IMG/VR virus record: IMGVR_UViG_3300021959_006010
Coordinates: 186,001 to 250,000 of that record
Strand: one strand, 5' to 3'
Length of the DNA: 64,000 bases
Origin: a virus
Made by a program: the position numbers and the translations under genes. The notes under the pieces are model-generated. The model was given only the letters and a program-made list of their open reading frames with translations, made no database searches and was not told where the DNA came from. Below are positions 3,902 to 44,577 of the stretch, piece after piece. The first letter of the stretch is position 1; every line of letters begins with the position of its first letter.

Positions 3902-4786
3902 TTATTTGGTTGCTCTATCTCTAGCAAAACTAATAATTTCTTTTGCTACATTTATTCCTGTATACTTTTCAAATCCTTTAAAACCAGGAGCACTGTTTGC
4001 TTCGCATACTTTAAAGTCATCACCATCAAACAACAAATCAATACCGCCAATGTCAAGGCCAAGTGCAGATGTTGTTGCTAGTGCAATTTCTTCTATGCGT
4101 TCGTTCATAGGAAAATTTTCTCCTACTCCTCCCCTAGTAATATTTGCTTTAAAACTTCCGTCTTTGCTACTGCGTTTCATAGCACCTAAAACTTTATCGC
4201 CAACTACATATACTCTAATATCTTCGCCAGGCTTACTATCAATGTATTCTTGTACAATAATTGCTTCGTCGCTTTTGATACCGTGTGCAAACTCTATAAA
4301 GTCTTGTAGTTCTTGTTTGTTGTGTACTAGATAAACACCTTTACCATACGAACCTGCAAAAATTTTAACTACACAAGGAAATCCTAACTCGCTTGCGATT
4401 AGTTTTGGATTCACTGGATCTTTTACTAGTACTGTTTTAGGCGCAGGTAATCCTTTTTCGGCAAACACTTGGGTTGCCCAGAGTTTGTCTTTGGTTACTT
4501 CAATAGCATGTGCATTATTAAGTAACGGAACATTCAACTTTTCTAAATGTCTTAAAACACTAAGACCAAAATATCCTGTGCCGCTGCCTGTTCTAGGAAT
4601 AACAACATCAGGTAAACTTACAATTTTATTTTTATATCTTATACTACGTCTATCATCTCGAGAAACACATATATCTAAATCAGGATGCATTACCAATTCA
4701 AAGTTGCCATTACCTTCTTCAATAAGTCTTTTGTTTTCGTAATTAGTTGTAGGTTGTTTCTTTTGTAAAACTATCCATCCCTTCAC
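3902..4786 (-). CDS. rimK: RimK-like ATP-grasp glutamate ligase
   Basis: The 294-residue protein is about the length of RimK. Visible parts are an N-terminal KRLIEEG segment, the central ATP-grasp (PKTVLVKDPVNP, FPCVVKIFAGSYGKGVYLV), the EYIDSKPGEDIRVYVVGDKVLGAMKR segment, and the C-terminal metal site GGIDLLFDGDDFKVCEANSAPGFKGFE. RimK adds glutamates to the C-terminus of ribosomal protein S6; other family members ligate other amino-acid-like substrates, so the target is open. The start is GTG at 4786, preceded by GAGAGG; no in-frame ATG lies nearby. It directly follows the tmRNA gene on the same strand, which hints at a ribosome-directed pair. Confidence 0.8.
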   Translation of the reverse strand: MKGWIVLQKKQPTTNYENKRLIEEGNGNFELVMHPDLDICVSRDDRRSIRYKNKIVSLPDVVIPRTGSGTGYFGLSVLRHLEKLNVPLLNNAHAIEVTKDKLWATQVFAEKGLPAPKTVLVKDPVNPKLIASELGFPCVVKIFAGSYGKGVYLVHNKQELQDFIEFAHGIKSDEAIIVQEYIDSKPGEDIRVYVVGDKVLGAMKRSSKDGSFKANITRGGVGENFPMNERIEEIALATTSALGLDIGGIDLLFDGDDFKVCEANSAPGFKGFEKYTGINVAKEIISFARDRATK

Positions 4787-4799
4787 CTGGGTGCCCTCT

Positions 4800-5130
4800 C
4801 AATAAAAAGTGGAGAGCATTCTGTTGCCCGGGGCTCTCCATAACCGCGAAGGTGCAGATGTTTAGGCTGCGATTGCTACCTCGTCAAAGTTAGCAAAAAC
4901 TTCAGGTTTAAAATTGCTGTTTGCAATTATTGAATTTGGCTGAATAACGTAGGCCAACACGGTTAACTCCACTTCACTTTCACACCTGTCGATCCTATTT
5001 CGACCCCATCAAAAGCATACCCATATATTATATATTGACCTAGGCTATCTGCCTAGCGGGATATGCTTTTGGTGGAGTCGCCGGGTACCGCCCCCGGGTC
5101 CAGAATGTGTCTACGTTGCTTCAACGCTAA
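4800..5130 (-). ncRNA. ssrA: Transfer-messenger RNA, circularly permuted two-piece form
   Basis: Read leftward, the acceptor piece comes first (about 5130-5070). It ends in a T-arm (CCGGG/CCCGG), the 3' acceptor strand CGACTCC, A and an encoded CCA at 5070. A spacer (5069-5008) able to form a hairpin follows, then the coding piece starting at 5007 with GGGGTCG. GGGGTCG pairs fully with CGACTCC. CAGGTGTG after the 5' end pairs with CACATTCTG before the T-arm, with one bulge, as helix P2. The tag frame at 4924-4862 encodes ANSNFKPEVFANFDEVAIAA and a stop. The permuted order is that of alphaproteobacterial tmRNA. The T-loop reads GGCGGTA, unlike the usual TTCRANN. The 3' end near 4800 is approximate. 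Confidence 0.93.
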
Positions 5131-5136
5131 CAGTAT

Positions 5137-5144
5137 TATTTATA
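5137..5144 (-). promoter_or_regulatory. T4-type late promoter for tmRNA
   Basis: TATAAATA on the minus strand, placing a start site near 5130, at the 5' end of the acceptor piece. Confidence 0.65.
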
Positions 5145-5159
5145 CACTATATTTGTGCA

Positions 5160-5744
5160 TTAGTCAACTTGTTTTGTAATAATTTCGTAAATCTTTTTCC
5201 AATTCCAAACACAGATTGCATTTCCTGTATAATCTTGGTTATGGTCATGATTAATTAGAATACCGTTAAGGCCTAACTCAATACCAGTATCTACGTTTTG
5301 CGGTTTATCTTCAACCCAATAGCATCCGGTACCTTTATACTCTAACAAAACTTCGTCTTTGTCGGCTCCAGTATCTAAATAAACATATTTTTCAAACACG
5401 GTATCGCCAAACATTTCTCTTAAGTTTTTAGTACGCAAATGCTGTGCATACTGATCGTTGCTTAGGCTTGTAATAGCATGGAAAATATAACCGTGTTCGG
5501 TATGTAACTTTTTAACATAATGCATTGCATCACGTAGTGGAGGTAGTTTGCGGATCCAAGCACTCTCATTAAACATACGTACTAAACGCATTGTTTCGTT
5601 TTTTTCTAATCCGTACTTGATATCCATTTTATAATCACCAGTTACTTTAATTGTGTAACCATGGCGTTTCATCCACTGATCAAAGGCGTACTCCCAATCT
5701 AAAAGTACACCATCGCAATCTGTTAAAATAACTTTATTCTTCAT
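5160..5744 (-). CDS. HAD-superfamily phosphatase
   Basis: The 194 residues begin with the HAD motif I (LTDCDGVLLDW) with the nucleophile and acid Asp. They continue with a helical cap, motif II in AITSLS, and a late acidic motif (YWVEDKPQN). Its size fits 5'-nucleotidase-like or polynucleotide phosphatase-like HAD enzymes of T4-like phages. The substrate cannot be read from sequence; nucleotide or DNA-end dephosphorylation is plausible. It has its own consensus promoter upstream and precedes the tmRNA gene, which may also be reached by readthrough. Confidence 0.8.
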   Translation of the reverse strand: MKNKVILTDCDGVLLDWEYAFDQWMKRHGYTIKVTGDYKMDIKYGLEKNETMRLVRMFNESAWIRKLPPLRDAMHYVKKLHTEHGYIFHAITSLSNDQYAQHLRTKNLREMFGDTVFEKYVYLDTGADKDEVLLEYKGTGCYWVEDKPQNVDTGIELGLNGILINHDHNQDYTGNAICVWNWKKIYEIITKQVD

Positions 5745-33864: not shown

Positions 33865-33896
33865 GTGTGTATAGTTAAAAACATAGAGGGCACACT

Positions 33897-34110: not shown

Positions 34111-34148
34111 ATACGCATACTAAACATTGCAACAAAAGTGAGGGCTTT

Positions 34149-34638: not shown

Positions 34639-34672
34639 ACTTGTACACATTAAATGCATTAGAGGGCAAACT

Positions 34673-34978: not shown

Positions 34979-35009
34979 GTTAGCATAACGCATATAGGAG
35001 GGCAAACAT

Positions 35010-35360: not shown

Positions 35361-35395
35361 GTACACACACTAACACAGCATAGAGAGGGCTTTTT

Positions 35396-36115: not shown

Positions 36116-36152
36116 GTTTGTATAACGTAACAGCAAATGCGAGGGCCGCAAC

Positions 36153-36548: not shown

Positions 36549-36583
36549 GTACACATACACTAAAGCATAACGGAGGGCAGTTT

Positions 36584-36869: not shown

Positions 36870-36903
36870 GTATGTACACGTTAACAATGTAAGAGGGCAT
36901 CTT

Positions 36904-37237: not shown

Positions 37238-37426
37238 ATGGATCTACTCCAACGATACCCGAACGCACTCGAGCAGCTAGAAATCCTCAAAAAAGATTAT
37301 TTAGGGGTTGACAATTCTGTAGAGGAGTGCTATATTAGTAGTATAACAAATGGAGGGCAATCCAATGCAAGTAGACCGCGAAAGACTGGAACGCATCGTC
37401 AAGATGGCAGAGAATCTCTACTCTGA
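37238..37426 (+). CDS. Possible coupled small protein
   Basis: ATG starts two bases after the preceding stop; the first 30 codons (MDLLQRYPNALEQLEILKKD) look like protein. It then runs across the next promoter and gene start, where the reading looks random. Real status uncertain. Confidence 0.3.
   Translation: MDLLQRYPNALEQLEILKKDYLGVDNSVEECYISSITNGGQSNASRPRKTGTHRQDGRESLL
37308..37336 (+). promoter_or_regulatory. Early promoter
   Basis: TTGACA - 17 - TATATT; leader GGAGGGC. Confidence 0.75.
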
Positions 37427-37566: not shown

Positions 37567-37597
37567 GTATGTATAAGTTAACAAAGAGGGCTACACA

Positions 37598-37822: not shown

Positions 37823-37859
37823 ATATACATAACGTAACAAAAGCAAGAGGGCTTACAAA

Positions 37860-38552: not shown

Positions 38553-38629
38553 GGGCCTTTAGCTCAATCGGTTAGAGCACCGGACTCATAATCCGTAGGT
38601 TGCGAGTTCGAGTCTCGCAGGGCCCACCA
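38553..38629 (+). tRNA. tRNA with CAU anticodon (Ile2 or Met)
   Basis: Full cloverleaf of 77 bases with encoded CCA. Acceptor GGGCCTT/AGGGCCC, anticodon loop CTCATAA. CAU can be elongator Met, or Ile2 if the C is lysidinylated by TilS; sequence alone does not settle this. Confidence 0.93.
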
Positions 38630-38634
38630 AGTAA

Positions 38635-38711
38635 CTGCCCTTAGCTCAGCTGGATAGAGCAACAGCCTTCTAAGCTGTGGGTCGTAGGTTCGAATCCTAC
38701 AGGGCAGGCCA
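38635..38711 (+). tRNA. tRNA-Arg (UCU)
   Basis: 77 bases, acceptor CTGCCCT/AGGGCAG, anticodon loop CTTCTAA, encoded CCA. Reads AGA, a codon used often in the AT-rich phage genes. Confidence 0.95.
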
Positions 38712-38715
38712 ATTA

Positions 38716-38799
38716 GCCCGCGTGGTGGAATAGGTAGACACAAGGGACTTAAAATCCCTCGCTTATGGCGTGCCAGTTCGAGTCTGGCCGCGGGCACCA
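38716..38799 (+). tRNA. tRNA-Leu (UAA)
   Basis: 84 bases with long variable arm, acceptor GCCCGCG/CGCGGGC, anticodon loop CTTAAAA, encoded CCA. Reads UUA. Confidence 0.95.
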
Positions 38800-38982: not shown

Positions 38983-39010
38983 TTGACAAAGGCAACAAAG
39001 GCTGTATACT
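38983..39010 (+). promoter_or_regulatory. Early promoter
   Basis: TTGACA - 16 - TATACT; leader AGAGGGC before the ATPase. Confidence 0.75.
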
Positions 39011-39046
39011 GTACACAGTTAGATAGAAAACACAGAGGGCAACTAG

Positions 39047-40045
39047 ATGAATATCACTATCGTAGAAGGCACATATAAAATTCGAGGCAACGACACTTCA
39101 GTAGCAGGTCAAACGTTTCCTCTAGTAGAAGAGTTTAGAATGGGTAAGAATGGCGGGTACGTAACTGTTGATGGATCAGCAGTAGCAGGCTTCCCGGATC
39201 GTAATATCAAGATCAAGGTTGTAAGCGCCGACAGTTACGTACCCGCGGGGGAAGGCCCCGCTGATAGACAGCGCGAAGAAAGCGATGAAGAGATCATCGA
39301 ACGAATTCGCACTCGCTTTGACATGCTAAAAGAAATGACCAAGGCTGTCAAGAAGCAAGATGTCAAAGCAATGATCGTAAGTGGCCCTCCAGGTGTTGGT
39401 AAGAGCCACGGCGTAGAAGAAGTACTTGATCGCTATAACACTATGCAGATGTTAGGCGGAGGCAAGCAGTTCGAAGTTATCAAAGGTGCTATGTCGCCCA
39501 TTGGTTTGTACTGCAAGCTTTTCAAGATGGCAGACAAAGGTAAGGTTGTAGTGTTTGACGACTGTGACTCGATCTTCCAGGACGAGCTAAGCCTTAACAT
39601 CCTAAAGGCTGCTCTGGATTCAAAGAAAGATCGTTGGATCCACTGGAACACTGATTCGTTCAAGTTGCGCAACGAAGGTGTGCCAGACAAGTTCAAGTTC
39701 GAAGCAAGTGCGATCTTTATCACGAACCTAAAGTTTGACAAAGTCAAAGGTAAGATGCGTGAGCACTTGGAAGCACTAGAGTCACGCTGTCACTACATGG
39801 ACCTTACCATTGACACAGAACGAGACAAGATGCTCAGAATCAAGCAGGTCATTCGTGACGGTATGCTAGATAGCTATAAGCTGAGTGATGAGATCAAAGA
39901 AGAGATTGTAGACTTCTGCGATATTAATAAGAAGCGACTACGTGAATTGTCCCTAAGAACAGTTTTGAAAGTCGCCGATTTGGCACTTGCCTTTCCAGAT
40001 CGTTGGGAAGCATTTGCCGAAAATACCGTGATGCGTCGAGCCTAG
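39047..40045 (+). CDS. AAA+ ATPase
   Basis: 332 residues. Walker A SGPPGVGKSHG at about 113, Walker B VVFDDCDSIF at about 167, sensor 1 SAIFITNLKF and an Arg-containing SRCHYMDLTI segment. C-terminal helical domain follows. The first 90 residues are beta-rich with an acidic link (RQREESDEEIIER). Similar ATPases are common in marine T4-like phages; the partner is unknown. Its mRNA continues into the four-hairpin RNA. Confidence 0.85.
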   Translation: MNITIVEGTYKIRGNDTSVAGQTFPLVEEFRMGKNGGYVTVDGSAVAGFPDRNIKIKVVSADSYVPAGEGPADRQREESDEEIIERIRTRFDMLKEMTKAVKKQDVKAMIVSGPPGVGKSHGVEEVLDRYNTMQMLGGGKQFEVIKGAMSPIGLYCKLFKMADKGKVVVFDDCDSIFQDELSLNILKAALDSKKDRWIHWNTDSFKLRNEGVPDKFKFEASAIFITNLKFDKVKGKMREHLEALESRCHYMDLTIDTERDKMLRIKQVIRDGMLDSYKLSDEIKEEIVDFCDINKKRLRELSLRTVLKVADLALAFPDRWEAFAENTVMRRA

Positions 40046-40212
40046 CTCCGCTGATTGGTAGACACTGTGAGCGGGTCCGCCCTCAACTTGCTCACAGTAC
40101 ATTGTGGTTGGACCGCCCTCATCCAACTACAGTAGAGTAGACGAACGCCCTCACGCTCTACTCTAATAGTGCCCTCGCAGTGTATGCCCTCACACTGCGG
40201 GGGCTTTTTTTT
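40046..40212 (+). ncRNA. Four-hairpin RNA with GCCCTC in every loop
   Basis: Directly after the ATPase stop codon. Hairpin 1: ACTGTGAGC/GCTCACAGT (40064-40098), loop with GCCCTC at 40079. Hairpin 2: GTGGTTGGA/TCCAACTAC (40104-40130, one GU, extendable by three pairs), loop CCGCCCTCA. Hairpin 3: AGAGTAG/CTACTCT (40134-40164), GCCCTC at 40147. Hairpin 4: 13-bp stem GCCCTCGCAGTGT/ACACTGCGGGGGC (40171-40204, one GU), loop ATGCCCTC, then eight T as terminator. Each loop complements GAGGGC, the motif of early leaders. No separate promoter is visible; it is probably cut from the ATPase mRNA. Confidence 0.85.
40171..40212 (+). terminator. Intrinsic terminator with GCCCTC loop
   Basis: Last hairpin of the four-hairpin RNA, followed by eight T. 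Confidence 0.9.
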
Positions 40213-40252: not shown

Positions 40253-40289
40253 ATTAGTATAAGTTGAAACACTGTAAGAGGGCAAACAG

Positions 40290-40666: not shown

Positions 40667-40810
40667 GAGACTATTTTCCGGATGCGTCCGTGTAGAGGAC
40701 CCGGCCGGCTAAAAGCACCATTGTTAGTTTCAGTCAAGCTAGAGCGGCAACGTCAATAAGGCCGTGCGGTGCGATTGGAGATACTAGGGGCGTATTCGGA
40801 AAATAGTTTC
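40667..40810 (+). ncRNA. Structured RNA of unknown class
   Basis: A 144-base element closed by a 23-pair stem (40667-40689 with 40788-40810) that includes at least four GU pairs, which points to RNA rather than DNA symmetry. Inside, GCACC (40715-40719) can pair with GGTGC (40768-40772), ATTG with CAAT, and CGGCC (40702-40706) with GGCCG (40760-40764), the last crossing the first as a possible pseudoknot. It lies between a stop codon and the next promoter. Confidence 0.65.
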
Positions 40811-40820
40811 AAATTAGGGG

Positions 40821-40849: not shown

Positions 40850-40885
40850 GTATATAACAGTTAGGAAATAGCAAGAGGGCAAATC

Positions 40886-41389: not shown

Positions 41390-41422
41390 GTATGTATAAG
41401 TTAAACAAACGAGGGCAAAGAT

Positions 41423-42393: not shown

Positions 42394-42418
42394 ATAGATA
42401 ACAGTTAGGAGGGCACCT

Positions 42419-42711: not shown

Positions 42712-42745
42712 GTATATATAGTTAGAAATTAGGAGGGCTCCTACA

Positions 42746-43978: not shown

Positions 43979-44011
43979 GTATATAACAGTTAAGCAATAG
44001 AGGGCAAAACT

Positions 44012-44541: not shown

Positions 44542-44577
44542 GTAAGAGTAAGTTAAACAAAGCAAGAGGGCATTGCA

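Follow-up and report, generated by a model that had tools for sequence, protein, structure and literature searches.

The locus considered here raises a simple question, namely why the message of a phage AAA+ ATPase should end in a series of hairpins whose loops are complementary to the ribosome-binding leaders of early genes. The window, that is, the whole stretch of 64,000 nt that was analysed, is part of a 275-kb virus record, and the positions of the relevant features are collected in Table 1.

The hairpin array and the early leaders

After the stop codon of the ATPase gene, four hairpins with GCCCTC in the loop follow one another, a fifth copy lies in the stem of the last one, and this last hairpin is a terminator; this description, made in the initial annotation, was found to be exact as regards both positions and folding. 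The GCCCTC copies of the window are located at 40079, 40115, 40147, 40171 and 40186. The array region of 201 nt has a minimum free energy (MFE) of -79.6 kcal/mol, compared to -56.4 kcal/mol in shuffles (z -5.2, reached by 0 of 200), and the stem of H4 shows covariation with the terminators of relatives. In Rfam, the array has no match above the curated threshold. A sub-threshold likeness to the cyanobacterial NsiR1 was seen at 40135-40212 on the plus strand (26.5 bits, the threshold being 39). The AlphaFold model of the ATPase (pLDDT 84) has the AAA+ fold, and its structural neighbours are MoxR- and clamp-loader-like.

Table 1. Positions in the window of the ATPase gene, the hairpin array and the early leader motifs.
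Feature	Position	Strand	Remarks
ATPase promoter and leader	38983..39046	+	TTGACA-16-TATACT; GAGGGC at 39035-39040
AAA+ ATPase gene	39047..40045	+	332 aa; PHROG 1250, T4 NrdC.10-like; transcript ends in hairpin array
3'UTR hairpin array and terminator	40046..40212	+	fold z -5.2; kept in all close relatives
Hairpin H1	40064..40098	+	loop GCCCTC 40079-40084
Hairpin H2	40101..40133	+	loop GCCCTC 40115-40120
Hairpin H3	40133..40165	+	loop GCCCTC 40147-40152
Hairpin H4, intrinsic terminator	40171..40212	+	stem-loop 40171-40204; loop GCCCTC 40186-40191
Fifth GCCCTC copy	40171-40176	+	5' arm of H4
U tract of H4	40205-40212	+	eight U
Leader motif GAGGGC	33886..33891	+	
Leader motif GAGGGC	34140..34145	+	
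Leader motif GAGGGC	34662..34667	+	
Leader motif GAGGGC	34998..35003	+	
Leader motif GAGGGC	35385..35390	+	
Leader motif GAGGGC	36141..36146	+	
Leader motif GAGGGC	36573..36578	+	
Leader motif GAGGGC	36893..36898	+	
Leader motif GAGGGC	37353..37358	+	
Leader motif GAGGGC	37586..37591	+	
Leader motif GAGGGC	37847..37852	+	
Leader motif GAGGGC	39035..39040	+	the ATPase's own; partner kept in all clades
Leader motif GAGGGC	40278..40283	+	
Leader motif GAGGGC	40875..40880	+	
Leader motif GAGGGC	41411..41416	+	
Leader motif GAGGGC	42409..42414	+	
Leader motif GAGGGC	42733..42738	+	
Leader motif GAGGGC	44000..44005	+	
Leader motif GAGGGC	44566..44571	+	

The window contains 28 copies of GAGGGC where 9.6 would be expected, and no shuffle reached that number. 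Between 33.4 and 44.6 kb there are 23 promoter-led early units, of which 19 have GAGGGC in the leader, three have GAGGGA or GAGGGT (33.5, 38.4 and 43.2 kb) and one has GAGGAGC (35.79 kb); the initial annotation had given the same figures. Each early leader has one promoter of the form TTGACA-17-TATAAT, and the leaders are alike also beyond the motif (GTTAG..ACA). It had further been argued that the GC following GAGG exceeds what ribosome binding demands and needs another explanation. Indeed, GC follows GAGG at 17 of 21 early starts vs 5 of 55 in the rest of this genome of 275 kb (P = 3e-9, Fisher test), such that the GC is early-specific and not accounted for by ribosome binding. Since the late strand uses other extensions, it is not a Shine-Dalgarno (SD) habit of the phage either. 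Outside the early block, the leader of a minus-strand gene (L001:1501-1521; G000:176876-176896) was observed to carry two GAGGGC copies 9 nt apart.

Loop and leader across related phages

The ATPase relatives listed fall into clade A with 13 close relatives, its sister clade B with at least about 50 contigs, and clade C with at least about 70. Leaders that are kept without the hairpins, which would speak against a connection between the two, are not seen in clade A, as in all 13 of the relatives listed GCCCTC is found no further than ca 200 nt from the stop codon of the ATPase, and the leaders have GAGGGC or AGGGC. The stem sequences of this clade are unrelated between contigs. In five aligned 11-bp hairpins every position pairs, double-sided changes are found in 8 of the 11 pairs, and GCCCTC is invariant. 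In one member, L027, most leaders now read AAGGGC and the loops are still GCCCTC, which leaves 5 bp; here the change is on the SD side (G to A), and the GGGC, which is dispensable for the ribosome, is kept.

In clade B, where the ATPase has ca 50-60% identity, the early leaders have GGAGCGAA and the loops TTCGCTCC. The hairpins, with the loop ATTCGCTCC, are placed either directly after the ATPase or 600-950 nt further on, past one or two small genes. In clade C, the loop/leader pair differs per contig, being TAGCTCC/GGAGCTA, TTGCTCC/GGAGCAA or GAATGCTCC/GGAGCATTC, and L117 of this clade has the loop TTCGCTCC with the leader GGAGCGAA. The same motifs were recovered by an unbiased search for heptamers downstream of the ATPase that are complementary to the contig's own leaders. 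The covariation of loop and leader in related phages, which the initial annotation had proposed as a check, is thus seen as a co-change across clades A, B and C.

The first 3 nt of the extension match in 232 of 393 cases, compared to 165.7 expected with permuted loops, the maximum in 20,000 permutations of loops among contigs, in which kinship is ignored, being 194. As a strand control, the commonest leader heptamer was sought downstream of the ATPase, where 43 of 59 contigs have its antisense, 7 the sense form, 2 the reverse and 1 the complement. On the ATPase tree, the matched states switch several times inside clade C over short branches. In a supported subclade of seven rows they are AA (L114, L115), GA (L117), AT (L119, L122) and TA (L172), and in another one AA (L109-L112) and TA (L113). 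We read at least five apparent matched co-changes from the tree, the independent ones being few, such that independent-pair and sign tests have too few pairs to reach significance. Imperfect loop/leader pairs are found in L140, L155, L161 and L171 (loop GTCTAGCTCC, leader GGAGCAGAC), L096 and L233.

The viral collection was also scanned with the 15-nt TTCGCTCC loop only, which gave at least 66 contigs outside the ATPase-derived set. Among the matches listed, the promoter-led leaders have GGAGCGA in 128 of 367 cases, GAGGGC in 1 and GGAGCTA in 5, and in all 25 of the listed contigs with an ATPase the loop lies 0-1.5 kb downstream of it on the same strand. The remaining contigs, without an ATPase in the available DNA, may hold second copies or be fragments. 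Extra hairpins with the same loop far from the ATPase were seen in the clade B contigs L034 (8.1 kb past), L049 (9.4 kb past), L032 and L053; these are possibly second copies of the regulator.

The partner that is constant over all clades, overlooked in the initial annotation, is the ATPase's own leader, which the loop matches in every clade. This leader and the loop share at least 7 nt in 107 of 133 array contigs, compared to 24% with everything outside the core shuffled. Whole records of clade A contain 5-22 GAGGGC..ATG and 0-1 GGAGCGA..ATG (2-3 GAGGGC..ATG in that of L027), those of clade B contain 7-16 GGAGCGA..ATG, and in those of clade C there is little besides the ATPase's own GGAGCTA leader. 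From these sequences we infer that the common core is an autoregulation of the ATPase message, to which an early regulon would have been added in clades A and B.

A possible mechanism and its alternatives

The motif of the array is exposed, its unpaired probability being 0.74-0.80 compared to 0.42-0.47 with shuffled flanks, and the leaders are likewise mostly unpaired (0.72). A stricter test, which counts only motifs inside a hairpin loop, was passed by 36 of 131 vs 5.5% in controls, and was superseded by the accessibility test because many copies sit in large loops or in linkers. In the predicted folds, some half of the motifs of clade C and a third of those of clade B are outside hairpin loops, in linkers or mixed folds. 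The duplex energies are -10.6 to -17.2 kcal/mol for leader-loop and -4.9 to -8.0 kcal/mol for leader-anti-SD pairing. Kissing loops are beyond what RNAcofold can model. Since the SD core is common to the clades, the matrix of duplex energies gives a between-clade specificity that is graded and not absolute.

With the array, the leaders, their joint change across clades, the exposure of the motif and the coupling to the ATPase all established at the sequence level, the pairing of the array RNA with the early leaders, as predicted in the initial annotation, is very well supported, most strongly by the joint change. We consider it probable that a 3'UTR RNA is at work here, which by pairing with the SD and a phage-specific extension represses both the early regulon and the message it comes from. 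The array would act as the 3'UTR of the ATPase message, or as an RNA processed from that message, and would offer several copies antisense to the SD core and to the extension just 3' of it. On the ATPase message, each loop would pair with the ribosome-binding site, over 6 bp here and 7-10 nt in relatives, and in clades A and B it would do so on ca 5-22 other early messages as well. As the leader-loop pairing is calculated to be about twice as strong as that of the leader with the anti-SD, the 30S subunit would be excluded and translation repressed, and the duplex may become exposed to RNase III. Because the array and its targets share a class of early promoter, the result would be an autoregulated early repressor network. 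Repression, the production, processing and stability of the RNA, the timing and the division between cis and trans action are what we infer here.

The same observations could in principle be accounted for in other ways. Given that the array ends in a terminator and that the SD core is part of the motif, one could see here ordinary terminators and a host-specific SD consensus, whose complementarity has no function. However, the extension lacks complementarity to 16S rRNA, it is early-specific (17/21 vs 5/55 in the same genome), and the loop matches it in three clades; the co-change of loop and leader refutes this as a full explanation, and we give it hardly any credence. It is nearly as improbable that a DNA-binding or shared RNA-binding protein reads the motif at both sites without any RNA-RNA pairing. 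Regulators of the CsrB type are titrated by repeated loop motifs, and the initial annotation had envisaged loops that imitate the leaders and bind a protein shared with them, but for a protein motif one would expect copies in the case of RNA, and one orientation or the other in the case of DNA. The array carries the antisense (43 vs 7 sense contigs), with the motif unpaired in hairpins with covarying stems, and the loops are always the complement of the leaders, never a copy. A protein sponge of the CsrB type, which requires loops that copy the target site, was rejected on the same grounds.

An unlikely option, though less so than the others, is an autoregulation acting only in cis, as in icaR, in which case the motif in the other early leaders would come from a copied promoter-leader cassette. 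The ATPase leader is the one partner that the loop matches throughout the clades, there is hardly any other match in clade C, and the early leaders resemble each other outside the motif (GTTAG..ACA), all of which would fit. Against this, 5-22 early genes of clades A and B retain the motif, which is altered as a set between the clades, the 4-5 copies in the array of the window exceed the needs of one target, and the leaders of L027 have drifted on the SD side with the non-SD GGGC retained. Finally, pairing by itself leaves the sign of the effect undefined, and long 5'-3' pairings can protect messages, such that the array might activate or stabilise the early messages or be a sponge titrated by their leaders. 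This is rather improbable, as the pairing covers the SD itself, where that of icaR (PMC3868564) and LhrC (PMC4132741) blocks initiation.

A single sequence element thus predicts regulator, targets and specificity across over a hundred contigs of uncultured phages. The natural compensatory changes already present would provide a test bed for regulon-scale RNA-RNA co-evolution, and the matched leader-RNA pairs are candidates for synthetic translation control. To our knowledge, early-gene shut-off in large phages without a RegA-like protein is largely unknown. A wider proposal, which we make tentatively and regard as somewhat doubtful, is that of a widespread phage system with a lineage-specific address code, consisting of SD extension and antisense loop, that arose from ATPase autoregulation and was extended at least twice to an early regulon, replacing a protein repressor. 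The divergence of the code may be driven by superinfection immunity, because an incoming phage that shares the code of a resident one would be silenced by the RNA of the latter as well; a parallel case is that of plasmids made incompatible by antisense RNA.

Relation to known systems and surroundings of the locus

The array works like αr14/cuckoo, LhrC, OppZ and icaR, and belongs to none of them. In the αr14/cuckoo RNAs of Alphaproteobacteria (CcsR, NfeR1), several hairpins of differing stem sequence each present one common anti-SD motif in unpaired form (PMC10746234), and the phage array likewise has several hairpins, one shared motif and unlike stems. However, its motif is GCCCTC, TTCGCTCC or TAGCTCC instead of CCUCCUCCC, and the exact CCTCCTCCC is absent from the window, where the loops carry GCCCTC. 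The CcsR RNAs arise by processing from the 3' portion of a coding mRNA (PMC10253847), which is a further resemblance, but the gene upstream of the phage array encodes the AAA+ ATPase and not DUF1127. Further differences are that the array is phage-borne, that loop and leader co-change, and that the extension lies outside the SD. The comparison with cuckoo RNAs in the initial annotation is thus a good analogy, but membership fails since the CCUCCUCCC motif is absent.

Like the icaR 3'UTR of Staphylococcus aureus, which pairs with its own SD, blocks initiation and is a substrate of RNase III (PMC3868564), the array has, within the 3'UTR, a motif that is complementary to the SD of its own message; icaR, however, has one gene and one motif, whereas the phage array has several copies and, in clades A and B, a regulon. 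As looked for in the OppZ/CarZ type, the 3'UTR is complementary to its own transcript, overlapping the ribosome-binding site. OppZ/CarZ of Vibrio cholerae is likewise derived from a 3'UTR and represses the operon that it comes from (PMC7398697), but OppZ pairs in the intergenic region of the operon, needs Hfq and RNase E, and has no loop array. LhrC of Listeria differs in that it consists of stand-alone bacterial sRNA genes with a general UCCC motif and without a dedicated regulon-wide leader extension.

The design of the proposed network would be that of T4 RegA, an early repressor of ca 30 messages, for which it and the ribosome compete (PMC3014915), with an RNA instead of a protein. RegA (PF01818) was found in none of the 13 array-bearing records searched, which are incomplete or of unknown completeness, and is present in three control phages, T4-like or Vibrio. 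PA5oct and RDJL6 are without the array and without RegA as well.

No earlier report of the array RNA was found in the open-licence literature, and no cultured phage carrying the array was found. A nucleotide search against named phages gave matches to tRNAs only and was discarded. The ATPase relatives in named phages (PA5oct, T4-likes, and Cronobacter, Vibrio, Aeromonas, Roseobacter and Agrobacterium phages) have no clear array, and downstream of the ATPases of other groups, with the leaders GGAGTTT, AAGGAACCC, AAAGGGC and GGAGAAAC, an array was not seen. PA5oct and RDJL6 have 8-nt complements, which could be chance. In PA5oct (L022) and cultured PA5oct-like phages, the complement is between the ATPase leader and the terminator stem, and may be either chance or a remote relic. 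An RNA-seq-based annotation of PA5oct has reportedly been published.

As to the surroundings, three tRNA genes (Met-CAT, Arg-TCT and Leu-TAA) are located a short way upstream of the ATPase, still within the early region (38553-38799, plus strand). Between two early genes there is a structured element of 148 nt (40668-40815, plus strand; MFE -53.9, z -4.1) with a long terminal inverted repeat, ACTATTTTCCG...CGGAAAATAGT, which has no Rfam match and was not seen in the clade A relatives. When genome contigs were scanned, the matches were metagenome-assembled genomes only. On the minus strand, at 4771-5171, the window also contains a phage-borne permuted tmRNA of the alphaproteobacterial type with the tag ANSNFKPEVFANFDEVAIAA, and this type hints at an alphaproteobacterial host.
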